The position numbers and the translations under genes are program-made. Below, one piece after another: positions 7,464 through 62,653 of a DNA stretch of 64,000 nucleotides (the first letter of the stretch is position 1; each line of letters opens with the position of its first letter). This stretch comes from Hyphomicrobiales bacterium (GTDB taxonomy: Bacteria > Pseudomonadota > Alphaproteobacteria > Rhizobiales > Rhizobiaceae), in the NCBI GenBank assembly GCA_900472175.1, contig UCHD01000005.1, forward strand, positions 186,001 to 250,000. The letters are read 5' to 3'. The notes under the pieces are model-generated. The model was not told the origin of the DNA and did no database searches. It saw only the letters and a program-made list of their open reading frames with translations.

Positions 7464-8465
7464 ATGGGCAATATCACTCTGAAAAAGGTCAACAAGAGCT
7501 TTGGCGCGACGCAGGTCATTCCTGGCATCGACCTGACGATCAACGAGGGCGAGTTTGTCGTCTTCGTCGGCCCCTCGGGCTGCGGGAAGTCAACGCTGCT
7601 GCGGCTGATCGCCGGTCTTGAGGATACGACCTCCGGCACGATCGAGATCGATGGCCGGGATGTGACCGGCGCTGCTCCCGCCAAGCGCGGGCTGGCCATG
7701 GTATTTCAGTCTTACGCGCTCTATCCGCACATGACGGTGCGCAACAATATCGCCTTTCCCTTGAAGATGGCGAAAATGGATCAAGGGGCGATCGACAAGA
7801 AGGTGACGGAAGCGGCGCGCGTCCTCAACCTCACCAACTATCTCGACCGGCGCCCCGGCCAGCTGTCCGGCGGCCAGCGCCAGCGCGTCGCCATCGGCCG
7901 GGCCATCGTGCGCGAGCCCTCGGCCTTCCTGTTCGACGAACCGCTGTCCAATCTCGATGCAGCCCTGCGTGGCACGATGCGGCTGGAGATCAGCGAGCTT
8001 CATCATCAGTTGAAGACGACGATGATCTACGTCACCCACGATCAGGTCGAAGCCATGACCATGGCCGACAAGATCGTCGTGTTGAGCGCCGGCAATATCG
8101 AGCAGGTCGGTTCGCCGCTTGACCTCTATCACCGGCCCGACAATATCTTCGTTGCCGGCTTCATCGGCTCGCCACGCATGAACTTTGCCACGGGCGAATT
8201 TGCCAAGCCGTACGACGCCCATACGATCGGCGTTCGACCCGAACATCTCAAGCTCTCGACCGAGACCGGAACATGGCGCGGCACAGTCGGTGTCGCCGAA
8301 CATCTCGGATCCGATACGTTCCTGCACATCCACGTCGATGGCATCGGCCTCGTCACGGCCCGCGTCGGCGGCGACTTCGCCGTCAAACACGGCGACAAGG
8401 TCTTCCTGACGCCAGAAGACGGCCGGGTGCACAAATTCAACGACAAGGGACTGGCAATTCGATGA
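7464..8465 (+). CDS. smoK: sorbitol/mannitol ABC transporter ATP-binding protein SmoK
   Basis: 333 residues, UgpC/MalK class. Walker [10 protein letters not shown] at residues 36-44, signature LSGGQ at 134-138, Walker B LFDEP at about 156-160, and a C-terminal TOBE/regulatory domain of about 100 residues ([10 protein letters not shown]). It powers polyol import on the cytoplasmic face of SmoFG. The stop codon overlaps the smoS start by four bases (ATGA), so the two are translationally coupled. Related MalK-type ATPases sometimes serve more than one transporter. Confidence 0.93.
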
Positions 8466-9235
8466 AACGGCTTCAAGGAAAAAACGCACTGATCACAGGA
8501 TCGGCGCGCGGTATCGGACGCGCGTTCGCGGAGGCTTATATCCGCGAGGGGGCTAGCGTTGCGATTGCCGATATCAATCTTGAACGGGCCAAAGTGACGG
8601 CCGGTGAGCTTGGACCTTCGGCCTATGCGGTTGAGATGGACGTGACCAGCCAGGCGTCGATCGATGCAGCGATTGCGTCGGTGGTCGCAAAGGCCGGTGG
8701 TATCGACATTCTGGTCAACAACGCGGCCCTGTTCGATCTCGCACCGATCGTCGAGATTACGCGGGACAGTTACGACAGGCTGTTTACGATCAATGTTTCC
8801 GGTACGCTGTTCACCATGCAAGCCGCCGCAAGGCAGATGATCGCGCAGGGACGCGGCGGCAAGATCATCAACATGGCCAGCCAGGCGGGGCGCCGGGGTG
8901 AAGCTCTCGTCGCCGTCTATTGCGCCACCAAGGCCGCCGTCATCAGCCTCACCCAATCCGCAGGGCTCGATCTCATCAAGCATGGCATCAACGTCAATGC
9001 GATCGCGCCCGGTGTCGTCGATGGCGAGCATTGGGATGGCGTCGATGCGATGTTCGCCAAATATGAAAACCGCCCACTGGGCGAGAAGAAGAGGCTTGTC
9101 GGCGCCGAAGTCCCCTTCGGACGCATGGGCACGGCTGAAGACCTGACGGGCATGGCGGTCTTCCTCGCCTCCGCAGACAGCAACTATGTCGTTTCACAGA
9201 CCTACAATGTCGACGGCGGCAACTGGATGAGCTGA
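8462..9235 (+). CDS. smoS: sorbitol dehydrogenase SmoS (short-chain dehydrogenase)
   Basis: 257 residues. This cytoplasmic NAD-dependent enzyme oxidises D-sorbitol to D-fructose (homologues also take galactitol). The nucleotide motif TGSARGIG is at residues 12-19, NNA at 86-88, and the catalytic set is Asn111, Ser140, Tyr153 and Lys157 (YCATK). The start overlaps the smoK stop. Placement between the polyol transporter and mannitol dehydrogenase supports the substrate assignment; the sequence alone would only give an SDR. Confidence 0.92.
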
Positions 9236-9262
9236 GTTCACAGCTCGTCGAAAGGAATGAAC

Positions 9263-10747
9263 ATGACGACCAAACTTTCGCTCGCCAACCTCGACGCCAT
9301 CAAGGCGACAGCCGCGATCCCGGCCTATGACCGGTCCTCGTTGAAGGCTGGCATCATCCATTTTGGTGTCGGCAATTTCCATCGCGCCCATCAGGCAATC
9401 TACCTCGATGACCTGTTCAACACCGGCAGCGACCACGATTGGGCCATCGTCGGGGCAGGGGTGTTGCCTTCGGATGAGGCGATGCGGGCAAAGCTCGAAG
9501 CGCAGGATTTTCTGACGACGGTGGTCGAGCAGGATAACAACAAGAGTGCGGCCCGCGTCACCGCACCGATGATCGATTATCTGCGGCCCGGCAACGCGAC
9601 GGCGACCATTGCTGCGCTTGCAGACCCTGCGATCCGCATCGTCTCGCTGACGATCACCGAGGGTGGCTATTTCATCGATCCGGCATCCGGCGTGTTCAAT
9701 CCGAAACATCCGGCCATCGTCGACGACGGCCAGAATCCGGGCGATCCAAAAACCGTGTTTGGCTTGATCATTGCCGGGTTGAAGGCCCGAAAGGACAAGG
9801 GCATCGTGCCGTTCACGGTGATGTCCTGCGACAATATCCCGGGCAATGGTGAAGTGACGCATGCAGCGGTGTCAGGTCTTGCGCGTCTGTCCGATCCGGC
9901 GTTTGCCGAATGGATCGAGGCCAATGTCGCCTTCCCGAACGGCATGGTCGACCGCATCACGCCGGCGACCGGCCCGCGCGAAGTCGGCATCGTCGCCGAT
10001 GAGTATGGCATTGACGACAACTGGCCGGTCTTTTGCGAAGAGTTCAAGCAATGGGTGCTTGAGGATCATTTTCCGGCCGGACGTCCGGCCCTTGAAAAGG
10101 TCGGCGTCCAGTTTGTTCCGGATGTTGCGCCCTACGAACATATGAAGATTCGTATCCTCAACGGCGGCCATGCGGCAATCGCCTATCCGGCAGCGCTTCT
10201 CGATATCCACTTTGTCCACGAAGCGATGGAGGACAAGACTGTCTGCGCTTTCCTCGCCAAGCTGGAGGAAGACGAGATCATCCCGGTCATCCCGCCGGTG
10301 CCCAACACCGATCTGACTGCCTATTTCAAAAAGGTCGAATCGCGGCTGTTCAATCCAAAAATCGCCGACACGATCCCGCGTCTGGCGCAGGACGGTTCCA
10401 ACCGCCAGCCGAAATTCATTCTGCCGACGACGGCAGACCGGTTGCGGCGCGGCGAGGATGTCATCGGCCTGGCACTGGTCTCGGCGCTCTGGTGCCGGTA
10501 TTTTGCGGGTACCACCGATAGCGGCAAGGGCATCACGTTCAACGATGCCAGTGCCGACCGGCTTCACGCGGCGGCAATCAAAGCCAAGGACGATCCACAG
10601 GCCTTTCTTGCGCTTTCGGACATCTTCGGCGATGTTGCGCAATCAACGCTGTTCCAGAAACGGTTCGCGCATGCGCTGCGGATGCTCTGGGACAAGGGCA
10701 CGCGGGCAACGCTGCAGCTCTATCTCGACGGAGAACTTGGAGAATGA
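9263..10747 (+). CDS. mtlK: mannitol 2-dehydrogenase MtlK
   Basis: 494 residues from the ATG at 9263. It is a long-chain, zinc-independent polyol dehydrogenase that oxidises D-mannitol (and usually D-arabitol and sorbitol) to the ketose with NAD. The N-terminal Rossmann motif is GVGNFHRAHQ, and the polyol dehydrogenase signature KIRILNGGHAAIAYPA lies in the middle. Another in-frame ATG sits at 9257, but the AAAGGA ribosome site touches it, whereas 9263 has normal spacing. It follows smoS by 27 bases in the same operon. Confidence 0.94.
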   Translation: MTTKLSLANLDAIKATAAIPAYDRSSLKAGIIHFGVGNFHRAHQAIYLDDLFNTGSDHDWAIVGAGVLPSDEAMRAKLEAQDFLTTVVEQDNNKSAARVTAPMIDYLRPGNATATIAALADPAIRIVSLTITEGGYFIDPASGVFNPKHPAIVDDGQNPGDPKTVFGLIIAGLKARKDKGIVPFTVMSCDNIPGNGEVTHAAVSGLARLSDPAFAEWIEANVAFPNGMVDRITPATGPREVGIVADEYGIDDNWPVFCEEFKQWVLEDHFPAGRPALEKVGVQFVPDVAPYEHMKIRILNGGHAAIAYPAALLDIHFVHEAMEDKTVCAFLAKLEEDEIIPVIPPVPNTDLTAYFKKVESRLFNPKIADTIPRLAQDGSNRQPKFILPTTADRLRRGEDVIGLALVSALWCRYFAGTTDSGKGITFNDASADRLHAAAIKAKDDPQAFLALSDIFGDVAQSTLFQKRFAHALRMLWDKGTRATLQLYLDGELGE

Positions 10748-10828
10748 TGTCATGACGCCTCGGCTCTCGTGTAACGTCGTGGTTGCGATCTGCGGCCATT
10801 TTGGCGGGCAAGCGGTGGCTTGACGGAG

Positions 10829-11524
10829 ATGAATACGCATCCGGCAAAATTGGTGATTTTCGATTGCGATGGGGTTCTGGTCGATAGCGAACCCTTGTCG
10901 CTTGATGTGCTGGTTCGCGTGTTGCGCAATGCCGGTGTCGACATGGATACCGAAGAGGCAACCGAACGCTTTCTGGGTAAAAGCCTAAAGACAATGTCGG
11001 ATATTCTGCACGAGGACTACGGCCTTGCAGTCGATGATCATTTTCTGGAGCAGATGCGGCTTGATCTCTACCAGCGGTTCCGTCAGGAATTGCAGCCGGT
11101 TGCGGGGATCGCCACGGCGCTTGATCAGCTCGATCTTCCGCGTTGCGTCGCCTCGTCGAGCCAGATGGAACGTATCCGGCTTTCCCTGACGATCACCGGG
11201 CTGATCGGCAAGCTCGAGCCGCATCTGTTCAGTTCGAGCATGGTCAAGCGTGGCAAGCCGGCGCCGGATCTCTTCCTGCACGCCGCAGCCGAGATGGCGA
11301 CGCCGCCCGAAAACTGCATCGTCATCGAGGACAGCCCTGCCGGGATCGAGGCTGCCAAGGCCGCCGGCATGCGGGTGTTTGCCTTTGCTGGTGCCTCGCA
11401 CGCAAAATCCGAGCGGCATCTGGACTCATTGCGGCGGCTTTCGCCGGACGTGCTGTTTGACGACATGCGGGAATTGATCCATTTTGTCCGTAGGGAACAA
11501 AGGGATGGGAACGCAGGGCTCTGA
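10829..11524 (+). CDS. HAD-superfamily sugar-phosphate phosphatase (PGMB/CbbY-like)
   Basis: 231 residues from the ATG at 10829; an in-frame TTG at 10820 would add three. HAD motif I is FDCDGVLVDSE with nucleophile Asp12 and acid/base Asp14, motif II is ASSSQMERI, and motifs III/IV are KPAPDLFLHAAAEM and VIEDSPAGIEAAKAAGM. These place it among small phosphatases or mutases acting on sugar phosphates. The stop overlaps the start of the kinase gene by one base, so it belongs to the polyol operon and probably acts on a phosphorylated intermediate or by-product. The substrate is unknown. Confidence 0.85.
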   Translation: MNTHPAKLVIFDCDGVLVDSEPLSLDVLVRVLRNAGVDMDTEEATERFLGKSLKTMSDILHEDYGLAVDDHFLEQMRLDLYQRFRQELQPVAGIATALDQLDLPRCVASSSQMERIRLSLTITGLIGKLEPHLFSSSMVKRGKPAPDLFLHAAAEMATPPENCIVIEDSPAGIEAAKAAGMRVFAFAGASHAKSERHLDSLRRLSPDVLFDDMRELIHFVRREQRDGNAGL

Positions 11525-13104
11525 TGGCGGATTTGATCGTTGCTGTCGATGTCGGAACCGGCAGCGCTCGCGCTGGCATTTTCGATCGGCATGGCAAGCA
11601 ATTGGCCCGGGCGGACTATCCGATCGCGATGAACCGGCCGGAAGAAAATCACGCCGAGCATGATTCCGAAAATATCTGGGCCGCCGTGTGCATCGCCGTC
11701 AAGACGGCCCGTGCCAAGGCCGGGGTGCCTGCCGAAGCCATTGCTGCAATCGGTTTCGATGCGACATGCTCACTGGTCGTCCGGGACATGGACGGCGCGC
11801 CGTTATCAGTCAATAGCAAGGGTGATCCGCGCTGGGATACGATCGTCTGGCTCGATCATCGGGCGTTGAAGCAGGCTGACTTCTGCACGGCCACGCAACA
11901 TCCTGTCCTCAACCATTCCGGCCGGGTCATGTCTCCTGAAATGGAGATGCCCAAGCTGATGTGGCTGAAGAAGAACCTGCCGCAGCAATGGGAAAAGACG
12001 GGCTATTTCTTCGATCTCGCTGACTTCATGTCCTGGCGGGCAACCGGCAATACTGCGCGCTCACGCTGCACGCTGACGGCCAAGTGGAACTATCTTTCAC
12101 ACAAGGAAAACGGCTGGCAGGACGAGTTTCTCGAACGGATCGGGCTTGAGGACCTGCGTGAGCGTGGCGGGCTGCCGGAAAAGACCTTGCCGGTCGGGCA
12201 ATCGGTTGGGCATCTGACGGCTGCAGCTGCGGCAGAACTCGGTCTGCATGAGGGCTGCGCGGTGGCGACGGGGCTGATCGATGCCTATGCCGGTGCTATC
12301 GGCGTGCTTGGCGGGTTCGCCGGCGAGCCAGAAAAGCTGGAGCGCCAACTCGCGCTGATTGCGGGAACCTCGAGCTGCATTGTTGCCTTTTCCAAGGACA
12401 TGAAGCCGGGATTCGGCATGTGGGGGCCTTATTACGAGGCGGCGTTTGCCGACAGCTGGCTGATCGAGGGTGGGCAATCGGCGACCGGCGCCTTGCTCGA
12501 TCATGTGGTCCGCAGCCATAGTGCTGGTGGGGAGCCGGATGCCGAGATTCATGCGCGGATAGTCCTTCGTATTCAGGAATTGCGGGCGGCCTACGGGACC
12601 GAGTTTGCGGCCCGGCTGCATGTGTTGCCGGATTTTCACGGCAACCGGTCGCCGCTTGCCGATCCGCACGCGCTCGGCGTCATCAGCGGCTTGACGCTGG
12701 ACAGTTCGTTCGACGCGCTGTGCCGTCTCTACTGGCGCACCTGCGTCGCCATCGCGCTCGGCATTCGCCACATTCTTGAAATGATGAAAGAGGCTGGCTA
12801 CGACCTCGACACGTTGCATGTGACCGGCGGCCATGTTCGCAATGCGTTGCTGATGGAGCTTTATTCCGACGTGACCGGCTGTACGGTCGTCGTGCCGGAA
12901 ACCAACGATGCCGTGTTGCTTGGCACCGCCATGGTCGCCTCTGTCGCCGGCGGCCTCTATCCGGACCTGCGCACCGCTGGACCGGCGATGTCCCCGGGCG
13001 GTCATGCGCAATATCCCAATGCGCAGATGCGGGAAACTTACGACCGCGATTATCGCAAGTTCCTCAGCCTCTACCGGCATCGCGTCGAGCTGGAAACCTT
13101 GTAA
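11524..13104 (+). CDS. FGGY-family pentulose kinase (probably D-ribulokinase/xylulokinase)
   Basis: 526 residues. The actin-like sugar kinase fold is shown by the N-terminal phosphate loop VDVGTGSARAGIFD, the motif FDATCSLVV, the mid-protein AGTSSCIVAF and the C-terminal TGGHVRNALLMELYSDVTGC. The pattern fits the ribulokinase-like FGGY pentulose kinases better than glycerol kinase. In this operon it would phosphorylate the pentulose made when arabitol, ribitol or xylitol is oxidised by SmoS or MtlK. It is the last gene of the polyol operon. Which pentulose it prefers cannot be read from sequence. Confidence 0.85.
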   Translation: MADLIVAVDVGTGSARAGIFDRHGKQLARADYPIAMNRPEENHAEHDSENIWAAVCIAVKTARAKAGVPAEAIAAIGFDATCSLVVRDMDGAPLSVNSKGDPRWDTIVWLDHRALKQADFCTATQHPVLNHSGRVMSPEMEMPKLMWLKKNLPQQWEKTGYFFDLADFMSWRATGNTARSRCTLTAKWNYLSHKENGWQDEFLERIGLEDLRERGGLPEKTLPVGQSVGHLTAAAAAELGLHEGCAVATGLIDAYAGAIGVLGGFAGEPEKLERQLALIAGTSSCIVAFSKDMKPGFGMWGPYYEAAFADSWLIEGGQSATGALLDHVVRSHSAGGEPDAEIHARIVLRIQELRAAYGTEFAARLHVLPDFHGNRSPLADPHALGVISGLTLDSSFDALCRLYWRTCVAIALGIRHILEMMKEAGYDLDTLHVTGGHVRNALLMELYSDVTGCTVVVPETNDAVLLGTAMVASVAGGLYPDLRTAGPAMSPGGHAQYPNAQMRETYDRDYRKFLSLYRHRVELETL

Positions 13105-13146
13105 AATAGGGGATCAGCACGCTTTGAAAAAAAATGAGACCGGCGC

Positions 13147-13171
13147 GGAACTTTTTGTCCGCGGATCCGTT
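13147..13171 (+). promoter_or_regulatory. exact EcfG promoter (GGAAC-N16-CGTT) before a predicted small RNA
   Basis: GGAAC at 13147-13151, 16 bases, CGTT at 13168-13171 on the plus strand. This equals the EcfG consensus and has the same spacing as the box before phyR. No protein gene lies downstream on this strand before nepR at 15511, but a hairpin-rich stretch ending in a strong terminator begins about ten bases later. Confidence 0.75.
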
Positions 13172-13177
13172 TCCCTG

Positions 13178-13305
13178 CTGTCTGGATAGCGGTTTTCATC
13201 GCCCCCAATGGAAACCCCAATTTATATCCGGCGATCAACTCACACGTCCCCTCGGTGAGTTGTCAATATCAGCCAGTGCCTTCCCCCGGCGCTGGCTGTT
13301 TTTTT
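13178..13305 (+). ncRNA. predicted EcfG-dependent small RNA with C-rich hairpin loops
   Basis: About 128 nucleotides between an exact EcfG promoter and an intrinsic terminator, with no convincing reading frame. Three hairpins are visible. Hairpin 1: 13191-13199 pairs with 13208-13216 (9 bp, loop CGCCCCCA). Hairpin 2: 13236-13243 pairs with 13255-13262 (8 bp, loop ACGTCCCCTCG). The third is the terminator (loop TTCCCCC). Outer pairing of GGATA (13184) with TATCC (13225) may close hairpin 1. Loops rich in C are typical of riboregulators that pair with G-rich ribosome sites; GsrN, the sigma-T-dependent RNA of Caulobacter, is the obvious functional comparison. The 5' end is estimated from the promoter. 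Confidence 0.6.
13271..13305 (+). terminator. intrinsic terminator of the predicted small RNA
   Basis: AGCCAGTGCC (13271-13280) pairs with GGCGCTGGCT (13288-13297), ten pairs with one G-U and a TTCCCCC loop, followed by G and seven T. It is too far (about 170 bases) from the pentulose kinase stop to be only that gene's terminator, though it may serve both. Confidence 0.8.
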
Positions 13306-13364
13306 GTCTTCATTTCCGGTATGAGAGAGATCGGGTTGCGGGCTACCATCGCCGGCTTGCCGGC

Positions 13365-14378
13365 TTATGTTTCGTTGATGATTTCATATTCCCGTGACGG
13401 AATGGTCAGGCGGTACTCGATCCGGTCGGGCGTGGTCAGATACAGGGCCTTGCCGCCGATCGCCACGGGAACGACGCGCTCCAGAACCGTGCGCGCAAAG
13501 GTATGATCGTCCGCCTCGCGCAGGGCGGCAGCGGGCGGCATGAGTTCGACCCAGGCCAGCTCGATGGCCTCATCCTCGTCGAGGATCGTCTCGAAACAAT
13601 CGATCATCAGCGAATTTACGCCTGCTGATATAGCTCCGTACGACGCCGAATTGACGGCCAGTTCGTGCAGCGCAAGGCCGATATGCAACGTTGCGTTGGG
13701 GGACAGATGCGCATTGATGCCGTTGATGGAGATAGGCGTTTGCGAATCCGGCCAATAAGCGCTCAACTGCCGCTCGGTGAGCGTAAAAAGATAGGCGCCG
13801 CGCCAGCTTGAATCCGTCACGAGATCCTGCGAATAGGCTAGCGACTGGATCCGTCCGCGAAATTTGATGAGGAAATAGTCCAGCGACAGGGCCTGGCGGG
13901 CCGTCTGCGTTGCAATCCCCTGGATGATGGCGAGCAGGTTCTTGGACCGGTGGCTCAGTTCACGCAGCAGGGTCTTCAGGATGCGTTCGCGATGCCGCGT
14001 TTCCGAAATATCGGTAATCACAGAAAGAATGCCGGCCATCCCAGCCATGTCAACGCGTTCGATATCGATCCGGTAGGTCAGCACTCCGTTTGCCGACGTC
14101 ACGTCGATTTCGGTCGATGCAGGAGTACTGGTGCCGGCTACAGTGCGTTTCAAGGCGATCAGGCGGGCGCCATCCTCGGCGCCAAATACAGTTTCATCCG
14201 CTTCTCTCGTCGTTGCCAGCAATTGCAACGCTTCAGGCAGGTTTCCGGAAACAACCGTATTGAAACCGTCTGGCTGATAAACATAGCCCGCGCCGGACTT
14301 CTTCAAAACCAGGTCCATCAGGACCTTGCTTGTATTGGCGCCGGTCTTGGTCGGGGCTGAATTGCCTGCATTGCCCAC
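13365..14378 (-). CDS. PAS-domain HWE-type sensor histidine kinase near phyR
   Basis: 337 residues, no membrane segment. A PAS-like domain covers about residues 20-130. The dimerisation/phosphoacceptor helix reads LLRELSHRSKNLLAIIQ with His143, and the ATPase domain has HELAVNSASYG (His238, Asn243) and WVE (Trp276, Glu278), the residues that name the HWE family. The glycine-rich GFG..LIER box of typical members is replaced by DHTFARTVLERV (292-303), so ATP-lid function may be altered. Its place beside phyR suggests it feeds phosphate to PhyR in the general stress response; the signal is unknown. Confidence 0.85.
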   Translation of the reverse strand: MGNAGNSAPTKTGANTSKVLMDLVLKKSGAGYVYQPDGFNTVVSGNLPEALQLLATTREADETVFGAEDGARLIALKRTVAGTSTPASTEIDVTSANGVLTYRIDIERVDMAGMAGILSVITDISETRHRERILKTLLRELSHRSKNLLAIIQGIATQTARQALSLDYFLIKFRGRIQSLAYSQDLVTDSSWRGAYLFTLTERQLSAYWPDSQTPISINGINAHLSPNATLHIGLALHELAVNSASYGAISAGVNSLMIDCFETILDEDEAIELAWVELMPPAAALREADDHTFARTVLERVVPVAIGGKALYLTTPDRIEYRLTIPSREYEIINET

Positions 14379-14505
14379 GCGAAGCGCCTTCCATTCTCTG
14401 ATCGATTGTCCGTTCCACCCTGGCAGCGTCCGGGGTAGAGCGGTTGTTTCCGGTCAGTGGTGCGACCGGTAACGGGCCGGCTCGAATATCGACGCATCCG
14501 TCAGA

Positions 14506-14526
14506 GGTCCCGGCATGGCCGGGGCC
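14506..14526. terminator. GC-rich hairpin between phyR and the kinase gene
   Basis: GGTCCCGGC (14506-14514) pairs with GCCGGGGCC (14518-14526) around a three-base loop, 48 bases beyond the phyR stop. There is no T run, so termination strength is doubtful. Confidence 0.45.
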
Positions 14527-14573
14527 TTTGGACAATTTGGTTTCTCAACAGAATGCTCTGGGCGAGACGGGCC

Positions 14574-15368
14574 TCAAGCCGCAGCCTTGGTGGATTCGTT
14601 GAAGAAAAGTGCCTGACTGATCAGCGCCTTGACCATGTCCGGGTTGAACGGTTTGGTGACCAGGAAGGTTGGCTCGGGCCGTTCGCCGGTCAAGAGGCGT
14701 TCGGGGAACGCCGTGATGAAAATCACCGGAATGGCCGTGTTCTTCAGGATTTCGTTGACAGCGTCGATACCGGAACTGCCATCGGCGAGCTGGATATCGG
14801 CGAGCACCATGCTTGGCCGCGTTGCCTTGAACAGGGCGACGGCCTCATCACGGGTGCGCGCGATGCCGGTGACCTTATGCCCCAGGCTTTCGACCATCTG
14901 TTCGATATCGATCGCAATCAGCGGCTCGTCTTCGATGATCATGATATCGGTGGCGACCTGACGGGAAATTTCCTCCGACGCACGCTCCAGCAACTGGTTC
15001 ATGCCGCTTTCGGTTGTATCGAGAACTTCCGCCGCCTCGCCGACGCGGAAGCCTTCGACCGAGACGAGAAGAAAGGCCTGGCGCGCGCGCGGCGATACGG
15101 ATGCCAAATTGATCGAGGCGCGTTTTTCCCAGGCGAACGGTGAGACCGGTTCAGGAATCAGCACCGACGATGAGCCGAACAGCTTGGTGTAAAGCTGGAA
15201 CAGGGCAACCCTGTCATTGCTGGCTTCCGGGAAAATGCCGACATCTGCAATCAGGGCTTCCAGAACGGCTGCGACATAGGCGTCGCCCGACGTCTGCGAT
15301 CCGGTCAACGCGCGGGAATACCGGCGCAGATAGGGCAGGAACGGTGCGATCCGGGTGGACAGTGACAT
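14574..15368 (-). CDS. phyR: general stress response regulator PhyR
   Basis: 264 residues. PhyR is the anti-anti-sigma switch of the alphaproteobacterial general stress response: when phosphorylated, its sigma-like domain binds NepR and frees EcfG. Residues 1-135 form the sigma-factor-like domain (SPRARQAFLLVSVEGFRVGEAAEVLD) and residues 141-258 a receiver with acidic pair Glu146-Asp147, phosphoacceptor Asp191 (LADIQL), FITA and TKPF. It is divergent from nepR-ecfG and preceded by an exact EcfG promoter, so it is autoregulated. Confidence 0.97.
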   Translation of the reverse strand: MSLSTRIAPFLPYLRRYSRALTGSQTSGDAYVAAVLEALIADVGIFPEASNDRVALFQLYTKLFGSSSVLIPEPVSPFAWEKRASINLASVSPRARQAFLLVSVEGFRVGEAAEVLDTTESGMNQLLERASEEISRQVATDIMIIEDEPLIAIDIEQMVESLGHKVTGIARTRDEAVALFKATRPSMVLADIQLADGSSGIDAVNEILKNTAIPVIFITAFPERLLTGERPEPTFLVTKPFNPDMVKALISQALFFNESTKAAA

Positions 15369-15416: not shown

Positions 15417-15441
15417 AACGCGACGCAAAAAAAAAGGTTCC
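15417..15441 (-). promoter_or_regulatory. EcfG promoter of phyR (GGAAC-N16-CGTT)
   Basis: Read on the minus strand, GGAAC occupies 15441-15437 and CGTT 15420-15417, separated by exactly 16 bases. The -10 element lies 48 bases before the phyR start. This matches the consensus known for EcfG/RpoE2 promoters of rhizobia. Confidence 0.85.
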
Positions 15442-15449
15442 TTGCGAGC

Positions 15450-15474
15450 GGAACATTTTTTTGGGCTGTGCATT
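15450..15474 (+). promoter_or_regulatory. probable EcfG promoter of nepR-ecfG (GGAAC-N16-CATT)
   Basis: GGAAC at 15450-15454, then after 16 bases CATT at 15471-15474, one change from CGTT. It lies 37 bases before the nepR ATG and is back to back with the phyR promoter. Autoregulation of nepR-ecfG is common in this group. Confidence 0.5.
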
Positions 15475-15510
15475 ATCGTGGCAGGTAAACCTCGAAGGTA
15501 TTTTATTTTG

Positions 15511-15705
15511 ATGACCGACAAACTTGGGGCAGGGCGTGAGACGATACTGTCTGCACGCACCGACAGTCCGAATGCGCAGATTGCCACGAAGCTCCGCGCC
15601 CTTTATCTCTCTGTTCAAGAAGAAGCCATTCCGGACCGGTTTCTCGATCTGCTCGAGAAGCTTGATGCGGTCGAGCGTCAGTCTATGCCGGATGTGGCAG
15701 AATGA
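15511..15705 (+). CDS. nepR: anti-sigma factor NepR
   Basis: 64 residues from the ATG at 15511; an upstream in-frame codon (15442) would start inside the promoter and is rejected. NepR binds and blocks EcfG and is itself bound by phosphorylated PhyR. The conserved core is NAQIATKLRALYLSVQEEAI followed by PDRFLDLLEKLD (about residues 17-49). The stop overlaps the ecfG start (ATGA), which couples translation of inhibitor and sigma factor. Confidence 0.93.
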   Translation: MTDKLGAGRETILSARTDSPNAQIATKLRALYLSVQEEAIPDRFLDLLEKLDAVERQSMPDVAE

Positions 15706-16268
15706 GTGGCGGCATGACGTCTGAAGAACCCAGTTTCAAGCGTGAAATGCTGGCGGCGTTGCCCAGCCTGCGCGCATTTGCCATGTCGCTGATCGGCAGG
15801 CATGACCGGGCTGACGATCTTGTGCAGGACACCATCATGAAGGCATGGGCCAAGCAGGACCATTTCGAGATGGGCACCAATATGAAGGCGTGGCTTTTCA
15901 CCATCCTTCGCAACGAACTGTATAGCCAGATGCGCAAGCGCGGCCGCGAAGTTCAGGACAGCGACGGCTATTTTACCGAATCCCTTGCGCAGCACCCGGC
16001 TCAATACGGTTCGATGGATCTCCAGGATTTCAAGCGGGCGCTGGAAACGTTACCACCGGACCAGCGCGAAGCCATCATTCTCGTCGGTGCGTCCGGCTTT
16101 TCTTACGAGGAAGCGGCGGAAATCTGCGGATGCGCGCTCGGCACCATCAAGAGCCGTGTCAACCGCGCTCGCCAGCGTCTGCAGGACATTCTCCAGGTGA
16201 CAGGTGAAAACGAGTATGGCCCCGATGCGACATCGGCACCGATGACATCGCGCGCTTTCATTTCCTGA
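15702..16268 (+). CDS. ecfG: general stress sigma factor EcfG
   Basis: 188 residues, ECF sigma-70 type. Region 2 spans about residues 14-85 (LVQDTIMKAWAKQDHFEMG, WLFTILRNELYS) and region 4 about 110-170 (LPPDQREAIILVGASGFSYE, then CALGTIKSRVNRAR). It directs RNA polymerase to GGAAC-N16-CGTT promoters, several of which are seen in this window. Gene order phyR / nepR-ecfG and overlap with nepR make the identity firm. A separate copy elsewhere in the genome is possible, since rhizobia often have two. Confidence 0.95.
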   Translation: MSGGMTSEEPSFKREMLAALPSLRAFAMSLIGRHDRADDLVQDTIMKAWAKQDHFEMGTNMKAWLFTILRNELYSQMRKRGREVQDSDGYFTESLAQHPAQYGSMDLQDFKRALETLPPDQREAIILVGASGFSYEEAAEICGCALGTIKSRVNRARQRLQDILQVTGENEYGPDATSAPMTSRAFIS

Positions 16269-16316: not shown

Positions 16317-16449
16317 TGCTGTTGTTGAGTGTGATGTGCGTGCGATTGCGTCGCAGGCCGCATTGGTGCAGAAACTGTTTCCGGCGTATTGCAGGGCTGA
16401 GGCCGCGGAGCCGGGAAATTTGACGCTGCCCGGCTGGGTATTGGAATTC

Positions 16450-17955
16450 ATGACACGAGAAACCAACGATCTGCAGCCGGCCGTGGCGGCCGTTCTAGCA
16501 TCGGCTGCAAGGCTCGATGTGCTGCGCACGGTCGTCCCGGATATGGCGGAGCCGGACGCCGATTTCAGCGATCTCGCCGACATCGCCGCCGCCCTCTTTG
16601 ACGCGCCGGTTGCACTGATCACTCTTCTCGATGCGCAGAACCAGTGGTTCAAGGCAACCAGCGGCATTGACGAGACACATGCGCCGTCCCGTGATTCTTT
16701 TTGTGTCCACACGATTGCCGGGCCGCTGGACGGTGCGCTGGTGGTCGCGGATGCCAGGAGCGATCCAAGGTTTTCCAATCAGCCGCGCGTTACTGGCGCG
16801 CCCTTCCTTCGTTTCTACGCTGGGGTTCCGCTTGTTGTAGACGGTCAACCGGTGGGCACGATCTGTGTTTTCGATCTGCGTCCACGAGACGATCTGGCGC
16901 CGCAACTCATTGTCCAACTGCAACGGTTGTCGCGCGTCGCGTCCTCACTCTTCATCCTGAAGCACGAAGCCCGTCAGCGCGCCTTGAAGGAAGTCGCCTT
17001 GTCGCGCGAGGAGCAGCGGCATGCGATGGCTCTGGATGCGGCAAATGTCGGCAGCTGGTTGTGGGATATCCGCTCCGGCAATGTTTCCTGCAATGAGCCG
17101 ATGTTGCGGATGTTCGGCATGCCATCCACCAAAAACATGCAGGCCCGCGATATCTTCAGTGCCATTCACCCCGAGGACCGCGTGGCGACCCTGTCGAAGT
17201 TCCGGTCCGCCATGACGCACGACCAGGAATATGACGGCACCTTCCGGGTGGCATCGACGGGGCGCTGGCTGCTTGGCCGCGGCCGTGTTCATGAGCGCGA
17301 TGCCGAGGGCAAGGCGACTGTTTTTCTCGGCATCAATGTCGATGTGACCGAAGAGCAGGGAGCGACCCAGCGCACCCGGCTTTTGCTGCGTGAACTCAAT
17401 CACCGGGTCAAGAATACGCTGGCCATGCTGCAATCCCTGGCGCGCCAGACCCTGCGGCAGACAAGCGACCCGCAGGAGTTCATGACGGCGTTCGCGGGCC
17501 GCCTGCAGGCGATCTCTGAAGCGCACGGGCTGCTTTCGGATCACGAATGGGGCGAGATCCGTCTGTCCGCATTGCTGGCGAAACAATTGGCGCCGCATGT
17601 GCGGGACTATGAAAAGCAGATCGAGATCCACAAGGACGAAATCCTGCTCGGGCCGGACCAAGCCGTCGGTCTGGGGCTGGTTCTGCACGAACTCGCAACC
17701 AATGCAGCGAAATACGGATCGCTGTCGGTTTACGGCGGCCGGGTGGTTTTAACCGCCCGCAGTGTCGACGAAGAGGGCCGCCGCGTCCTGCATATGACCT
17801 GGACTGAGGTCGGTGGTCCGCCGGTCGAAGAGCCCGCCCGGCGCGGCTTCGGCTCGATCCTGATTGAGCGCAGCCTGGACAAGGTGATGGGTAGTTCGGT
17901 GAAGGTTGAATATCTACCGGCAGGCCTGACGGCAATCGTCCGCCTGCCGCTTTGA
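16450..17955 (+). CDS. GAF-PAS HWE-type sensor histidine kinase
   Basis: 501 residues from the ATG at 16450; an in-frame GTG at 16336 would add 38 residues but overlaps the hairpin region and has no ribosome site. A GAF domain (about 35-175, FDAPVALITLLDAQNQWFKA) and a PAS domain (about 190-305, ending in the PAC-like VFLGINVDVTEEQ) precede the HWE kinase core: RELNHRVKNTLAMLQSLARQ (His318), HELATNAAKYGSLS (His413), WTE (451-453) and an intact GFGSILIERSL box. It is soluble. Position 181 bases after ecfG suggests input to PhyR or a related single-domain regulator. Confidence 0.87.
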   Translation: MTRETNDLQPAVAAVLASAARLDVLRTVVPDMAEPDADFSDLADIAAALFDAPVALITLLDAQNQWFKATSGIDETHAPSRDSFCVHTIAGPLDGALVVADARSDPRFSNQPRVTGAPFLRFYAGVPLVVDGQPVGTICVFDLRPRDDLAPQLIVQLQRLSRVASSLFILKHEARQRALKEVALSREEQRHAMALDAANVGSWLWDIRSGNVSCNEPMLRMFGMPSTKNMQARDIFSAIHPEDRVATLSKFRSAMTHDQEYDGTFRVASTGRWLLGRGRVHERDAEGKATVFLGINVDVTEEQGATQRTRLLLRELNHRVKNTLAMLQSLARQTLRQTSDPQEFMTAFAGRLQAISEAHGLLSDHEWGEIRLSALLAKQLAPHVRDYEKQIEIHKDEILLGPDQAVGLGLVLHELATNAAKYGSLSVYGGRVVLTARSVDEEGRRVLHMTWTEVGGPPVEEPARRGFGSILIERSLDKVMGSSVKVEYLPAGLTAIVRLPL

Positions 17956-18524: not shown

Positions 18525-18914
18525 TTATCGGCGGATCAAGGCGGCGACCAGCAGGCCCAAGGCAGCAGCAGCGCCCAGGGTGGCAACCGGATGCTGGCGC
18601 ACGGTCCGGCGGACCTGCTTTTCTGTCACCGAATAGCGGCTGCGCAGCTCGGCAAACAGTGCTTCGCCATTTTCGAGGAGATCTTGAAGTCCCGCCTCGG
18701 CCTGATCGCGTGCATCGTGGGCGCGTTCACGAACGTCCCTGGACGCATCGGATGCCCGGGCGCGCGCATCCTTCGATGCGTCTGCGCCGCGTTGCGACAG
18801 GAGCTTGGCCAAGGATGCGATTTCGTCGCGGATTTCGCTGATCTGATCTTCGATCGGGGCATCGAGAAGGCTGCCATTGCGCTTCTTTGCGCCTGAAAAG
18901 AGACCTGTGGCCAT
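18525..18914 (-). CDS. DUF883 family (ElaB/YqjD-like) stress protein
   Basis: 129 residues. The middle (about 25-95) is a highly charged, probably coiled-coil region rich in Ala, Arg and Asp (SKDARARASDASRDVRERAH), and the C terminus has one hydrophobic segment HPVATLGAAAALGLLVAAL ending in IRR. This matches DUF883/ElaB-YqjD proteins, which anchor in the inner membrane; the E. coli homologues bind ribosomes in stationary phase. An exact EcfG promoter lies 105-129 bases upstream of its start, so it belongs to the stress regulon. Molecular role here is unknown. Confidence 0.8.
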   Translation of the reverse strand: MATGLFSGAKKRNGSLLDAPIEDQISEIRDEIASLAKLLSQRGADASKDARARASDASRDVRERAHDARDQAEAGLQDLLENGEALFAELRSRYSVTEKQVRRTVRQHPVATLGAAAALGLLVAALIRR

Positions 18915-19018: not shown

Positions 19019-19043
19019 AACGCGCAGAAAGGTGTTTGGTTCC
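19019..19043 (-). promoter_or_regulatory. exact EcfG promoter of the DUF883 gene
   Basis: On the minus strand GGAAC (19043-19039), 16 bases, CGTT (19022-19019). The -10 element is 105 bases before the DUF883 start, giving an untranslated leader of nearly 100 bases. It lies just beyond the 3' end of hmuV. Confidence 0.75.
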
Positions 19044-62598: not shown

Positions 62599-62624
62599 AA
62601 AAACGGCGGGTCCAGCCCGCCGTT
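62597..62624. terminator. bidirectional terminator between EamA and helicase genes
   Basis: AACGGCGGG (62602-62610) pairs with CCCGCCGTT (62616-62624) around TCCAG. Read leftwards it is followed by seven T, a proper terminator for the helicase gene; read rightwards it closes the EamA gene. Confidence 0.85.
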
Positions 62625-62653
62625 CCTCACTTCAGTTCATTATCGCGAAAGGC

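Follow-up and report, generated by a model that had tools for sequence, protein, structure and literature searches.

The closest described counterparts of the element considered here are two small RNAs (sRNAs) of the general stress response. ReC64 of Rhizobium etli lies downstream of the kinase gene tcrY in the phyR-ecfG locus and has an EcfG1 consensus promoter; its start was mapped by 5′ rapid amplification of cDNA ends, its expression is lost in ecfG1 mutants, it is directly activated in Escherichia coli by both EcfG1 and EcfG2, and it is conserved in Rhizobium leguminosarum (Jans et al. 2013, PMC3892343). ReC64 was seen on a Northern blot together with a larger band that was not explained (Vercruysse et al. 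2010, PMC2881028), and its level rises in salt shock (PMC4167512); related prior literature includes PMC3188799 and PMC3616915. In GsrN of Caulobacter crescentus, the 5′ C-rich loop pairs with the katG leader, as swap mutants indicate, and GsrN homologues have been predicted in R. etli and Sinorhizobium meliloti from expression, promoter, and position (2018, PMC5869019). Here we compare these RNAs with positions 13178–13305 on the plus strand of a 64,000-nucleotide stretch of DNA from a Hyphomicrobiales bacterium of the Rhizobiaceae (contig UCHD01000005.1, positions 186,001 to 250,000), the whole of which we call the window.

Judged from its sequence and surroundings, 13178–13305 is almost certainly the local ortholog of ReC64, and it is very probably a real sRNA gene under the control of the general stress sigma factor. 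A preliminary description of this DNA had presented the element as a new sRNA. That part has to be given up, as this is the local ReC64/GsrN-like RNA, already published for Rhizobiaceae. The nature it had assigned to the element, an EcfG-dependent, trans-encoded sRNA beside phyR-nepR-ecfG, has strong support from conservation, covariation, the promoter, and the published R. etli counterpart, for which the transcript, the start site, and EcfG1 dependence are established in print. The features shared with ReC64 of R. etli CFN42 (PMC2881028, PMC3892343) are a place downstream of an HWE histidine kinase gene at the phyR-ecfG locus, an EcfG consensus promoter, and a non-coding character.

The start of the RNA is placed 6–8 nucleotides (nt) after the CGTT of the promoter and its end at the T-run of the terminator, which predicts a length of about 127 nt. 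A covariance model (CM) matches 13178–13304 with 141.4 bits, a score to which the window sequence contributes as one of the model's own training sequences. The predicted fold of 13177–13306 reaches −51.7 kcal/mol compared with −30.1 (sd 3.4) for shuffled sequences (z −6.3; 0 of 200 as good). All three hairpins noticed earlier are present, and a fourth helix had been missed: within the 5′ domain (13180–13232), a long-range stem, P1 (13180–13188 with 13225–13232), encloses hairpin 1 (13191–13216), the loop of which, CGCCCCCA, lies at 13200–13207. Hairpin 2 (13233–13264) carries the loop UCCCCU at 13247–13252. The terminator (13270–13305) is formed by a hairpin at 13270–13298 with the loop UUCCCCC at 13281–13287, followed by the seven T residues at 13299–13305 that had been described; of 8 terminator-like sites in 12000–15000 (2.8 expected), it has the most pairs, 11. 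Each of the three loops does hold a C-run, with the amendments that the second apical loop, UCCCCU, is shorter than the ACGTCCCCTCG first given and that a further run lies at 13215–13218, at the end of hairpin 1. Runs of at least four C thus number 4 in the sRNA, against 0.83 expected from base shuffles (P ~0.002), and the C-run nucleotides of all three loops are mostly unpaired in the predicted ensemble. Mechanical open reading frames (ORFs) overlap the stretch at 12908–13189, 13134–13397, and 13255–13506. Because the transcript varies by single bases between 118 and 130 nt in 82 aligned sequences, and the longest ORF closed within it ranges from 0 to 26 codons, no believable protein is encoded, as first described. 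The sRNA has no match in Rfam at the gathering score.

Comparison with relatives carries the argument for a gene. A DNA search found the stretch in all 25 same-genus genomes (the organism's own included) and in 0 of 16 genomes of other families. A protein search with the neighbouring kinase returned 138 relatives, the best 80 of which were kept as loci. A CM built from 29 closer sequences (R1) was run on the 56 loci that had not been used for it (L025–L080) and matched every one of them on the expected strand, adjoining the kinase, 55 with E ≤ 7.8e-7 and L058 with E = 0.0018; 42 of the 98 R1 matches in that run were weaker second matches, many of them in the same position on the other strand. 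In the alignment fitted to the CM (A4, 74 distinct rows), 95.6% of cells fall in standard pairs, and changes on both sides with pairing kept occur in 28 of 34 pairs, distributed as 6/6 and 7/7 in the two helices of the 5′ domain, 6/10 in hairpin 2, and 9/11 in the terminator. When the partners are slid by 1–3 columns as a control, 30–40% of cells are paired and 5–8 pairs show two-sided changes. Two-sided changes are found in 5 of 34 pairs of alignment A1 (closer relatives) and in 9 of 23 pairs of alignment A2 (wider set), neither of which was structure-fitted; P1 was not recovered in A2 because the alignment is loose there. A separate 82-row alignment was assembled with a pattern that failed on 4 of 105 loci (L032, L035, L058, and L080), all of which the CM finds. 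Since this pattern requires both the hairpin-2 stem and a promoter-like motif, those columns of the 82-row set are biased and do not count as evidence. In all 82 of its sequences, the hairpin-2 loop keeps four or more consecutive C residues.

The promoter proposed earlier is an exact match on the plus strand (13147–13171), with GGAAC at 13147–13151, a 16-nt spacer, and CGTT at 13168–13171. Taken alone, this match is weak evidence: the window has 4 GGAAC-N15–17-CGTT matches compared with 1.84 (sd 1.41) expected, and at least 4 turn up in 12 of 100 shuffles, so that the count in 64 kb is within chance. The promoter evidence is strong because GGAAC is conserved at a fixed distance. In loci picked without use of the promoter, it lies at −34 to −28 before the CM match in 105 of 106 CM-supported loci, the exception being L121 at −27; these 106 are counted without the window, the duplicates among L081–L110 and L138–L143, and L152, and some are identical in sequence. 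A control stretch of 55 nt, 200 nt further up, holds any GGAAC in 11 of 109 cases, and GGAAC is absent before three weak CM matches that we judged false. Stems and promoter are therefore both conserved among relatives, a point on which the preliminary description had staked its claim, and the gene anatomy, the structure by covariation, and the conservation of promoter and locus are directly established here. The other three promoter matches of the window are all on the minus strand: an exact one at 15417–15441, 48 bases ahead of the start of phyR (15368); a further exact one at 19019–19043, about 104 bases before a DUF883-like gene (18525–18914, with a Pfam DUF883_C score below the cut-off); and one at 62602–62626.

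Within the family, R1 finds matches in 19 of 151 genomes at E ≤ 0.01. A broader CM from 42 sequences (R2) finds them in 52 of 247 genomes at the same threshold, weak matches judged false included, and at E ≤ 1e-8 in 34 of 247 genomes and 13 of 106 genera; some of these matches arise by construction, because 11 of the 42 R2 sequences came from genomes of the R1 family search. In the class, R2 matches 4 of 387 genomes at E ≤ 0.01, of which two belong to the same family and two were judged false. These family and class searches used stricter filters, so that absence elsewhere is not established. Among the matches set aside as false, L120, L124–L127, and L137 resemble, by our own reading of the letters, one transporter-type coding sequence, and L134 and L135 come without stress-locus genes and promoter.

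The link to ReC64 runs through Rhizobium. The CM matches R. leguminosarum (L076, L077) with 60.6 bits, and these loci, together with R. aethiopicum (L050, L057) and R. esperanzae (L061, L069), hold the match at the same place with 59.3–60.6 bits. Two differences stand beside this agreement: the published length of ReC64 is 88 nt, whereas the window gene predicts about 127 nt to the terminator, and the hairpin-1 loop CGCCCCCA of the window has a GACCC-type counterpart in R. leguminosarum-type sequences, in which the C-run follows the hairpin. The likeness to GsrN (PMC5869019) is one of kind. Beside evidence of transcription, a stress-sigma promoter and a place near ecfG-nepR-phyR are the published marks of GsrN homologues, which typically lie near the stress locus, and the window sRNA has both the promoter and the place; its C-rich 5′ loop at 13200–13207 appears exposed, like that of GsrN. 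Dependence on an EcfG-type sigma factor is shown in Caulobacter and predicted here from the promoter, and, as a difference from GsrN, the window sRNA carries C-runs in hairpin 2 and the terminator too. As to homology with GsrN itself, the R2 matches in the class outside the family, obtained with strict filters, were two loci without stress-locus genes and without GGAAC. Bsr6 of Brucella abortus is comparable: this sRNA depends on the general stress sigma factor RpoE1, and its promoter contains an RpoE1 box (PMC12772402). SmelC601, listed as 127 nt with an RpoE2 promoter (PMC7143759), may be the S. meliloti member of the ReC64-type RNA.

The gene order in the window is FGGY kinase, sRNA, HWE kinase, phyR, nepR, ecfG, and second HWE kinase. 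Upstream of the sRNA lies the FGGY pentulose kinase gene (11524–13104, plus strand; NCBIfam TIGR01315), and convergent with the sRNA is the first HWE histidine kinase gene (13365–14378, minus strand; Pfam HWE_HK), the counterpart of tcrY by position (PMC3892343). They are followed by phyR (14574–15368, minus strand; NCBIfam NF006623 PhyR family, 381 bits), nepR (15442–15705, plus strand; Pfam NepR, start codon provisional), and ecfG (15702–16268, plus strand; Pfam Sigma70_r2 and Sigma70_r4_2 and NCBIfam sigma factor models), named by its place beside nepR and phyR. The second HWE kinase gene, with GAF and PAS domains, lies after ecfG (16336–17955, plus strand); it is found in most loci of the window's clade, and the hits in Rhizobium-type loci are cross-matches to the first kinase. 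Across the 80 loci, some of them incomplete, the kinase (by selection) and phyR are found in all, nepR and ecfG in 78, and the FGGY gene in 25. At several more divergent loci of the family (e.g. L111, L113, L114, L119, and L121–L123), the sRNA is flanked by the FGGY gene and phyR, and the search there found no relative of the first HWE kinase, which ties the sRNA to the stress locus and not to the kinase alone. Upstream of the FGGY kinase, genes for an ABC transporter ATPase, short-chain and mannitol-type dehydrogenases, and a HAD-type protein make 7464–13104 look like a polyol-use cluster adjoining the stress locus; all of these assignments but that of the FGGY kinase are read from ORF translations.

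We consider it probable that the ReC64 ortholog is a trans-acting sRNA, transcribed by EcfG, whose C-rich loops pair with G-rich mRNA leaders. PhyR would free EcfG from NepR, and RNA polymerase with EcfG would transcribe 13178–13305. The RNA would then fold such that the closed 5′ domain shows a CCCCC loop and hairpin 2 shows UCCCCU, with the terminator hairpin adding a C-run, and pairing of the exposed loops with G-rich leader stretches would alter translation or stability of the mRNA. The pairing step itself, argued by analogy with GsrN, we favor with less assurance, and both pairing and targets are matters that we infer from that analogy.

Several points weigh against this reading. The identification as ReC64 draws on close relatives, R. 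leguminosarum among them, and on position and promoter, not on the R. etli CFN42 sequence, and expression in this organism is likewise deduced. A run of at least four C precedes hairpin 2 in 66 of the 82 aligned sequences, not in all, and the place of the 5′ C-run varies by clade, the hairpin-1 loop of the Rhizobium type having fewer C and the run often following the hairpin. Nor did small tests of loop complements, seven locus leaders, and katG yield a convincing mRNA target. Exact complements of the hairpin-1 and hairpin-2 loops occur in the organism's own genome at 11 sites each, the sRNA gene included (2 and 6 for a backwards-pattern control), and most of the hairpin-1 excess comes from the codon string ATGGGGGCGAT within long open frames; in this search, limited to one genome and to these two loops, no clear leader site emerged. 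Three candidate sites were dropped, L177 and L188 being antisense to genes and L186 lying just after a stop codon. Against the leaders of the two HWE kinases, phyR, nepR, ecfG, the FGGY kinase, and the DUF883-like gene, none of the three loops did better than with base-shuffled leaders (lowest p 0.08 of 21 tests). Of 25 genomes, 18 yielded katG; among the 14 same-genus carriers, 13 leaders were read (the fragmented G013 was left out), and at least four G within 260 nt upstream occur in 5 of 13 and five G in 3 of 13, the organism's own genome included. As the G-run is not conserved, katG was abandoned as a target. The earlier proposal of action on GGGG/GGAGG leaders is thus plausible by analogy with GsrN and gained no target here; because the tests were negative the mechanism stays at the level of analogy, and because they were small their failure says little.

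The same results bear on a different mode of action, in which the EcfG-dependent ReC64 ortholog would work chiefly through binding to a protein or a different RNA, as in a sponge or by titration, and not through pairing with mRNA leaders. The empty target searches fit this idea, and three C-rich loops in one RNA would suit multivalent binding. The gap between kinase and sRNA has a median of 45 nt (2–900) and does not exceed 60 nt in 61 of the 79 loci (13305–13364 in the window), and the kinase strand has a five-T run ahead of the sRNA or just within it in only 11 of 79 loci (L032 excluded from both counts), so that kinase transcripts, if reading on, may run antisense through the sRNA. GsrN, however, which comes nearest among studied cases in promoter, place, and loop, does pair with katG mRNA, and given how little the target tests can say, we regard a protein- or sponge-based action as unlikely.

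Two further alternatives concern the identity of the stretch. It resembles the sRNA family alpha-r14/NfeR1 (Rfam RF02344) in how its hairpins are ordered and in having C-rich, CCUCCUCCC-type loops both ahead of the terminator and within it, and a 201-base stretch does match RF02344 weakly (25.9 bits, E 0.0027). We rejected membership, since this score is far under the gathering score of 58.8 bits; moreover, the same genome has five genuine alpha-r14 genes elsewhere above the Rfam cut-off (L128–L132, 95–121 bits, two of them about 290 bases apart), and promoter and locus point to ReC64, which makes a divergent alpha-r14 RNA very improbable. Still less credible is that the stretch amounts to no more than the 3′ untranslated region of the FGGY kinase gene with its terminator, or that its features arise by chance from base composition. 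It does follow the FGGY gene directly, and a single promoter match is no more than chance would produce in 64 kb, but the promoter is conserved and four helices covary, also in the 55 loci, out of 80, that yielded no FGGY gene.

The ReC64 ortholog may have one further property in common with GsrN, which is cut from about 100 to 51–54 nt (PMC5869019). In four R. leguminosarum-type sequences, 88 nt counted from the start as placed above end after hairpin 2 and just before the terminator hairpin, which may be a new observation. Cutting of a full-length RNA of about 121–123 nt at this point would explain why ReC64 was sized at 88 nt with a larger band. We tentatively suggest, as a possibility that we would not yet favor, an old RNA of about 120–130 nt, lodged in the stress locus between the FGGY kinase gene and phyR, that is cut between hairpin 2 and the terminator into a stable 5′ riboregulator of about 88 nt keeping two C-rich sites. 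This cleavage is a prediction likened to the cutting of GsrN, and the size of the larger band forms no part of its basis.

Overall, comparison gives good support to a real gene that appears orthologous to a published RNA. The rhizobial GsrN-like RNA had previously rested in print on expression, promoter, and position, to which are now added a covariance-supported structure, a test of promoter conservation, and a synteny model that extends over 13 genera with strong matches. The loops to mutate in a target experiment can now be named, and the predicted processed form is testable by Northern blot. If the cutting proposed here is true, one stress RNA with two C-rich sites could read two classes of G-rich leaders.
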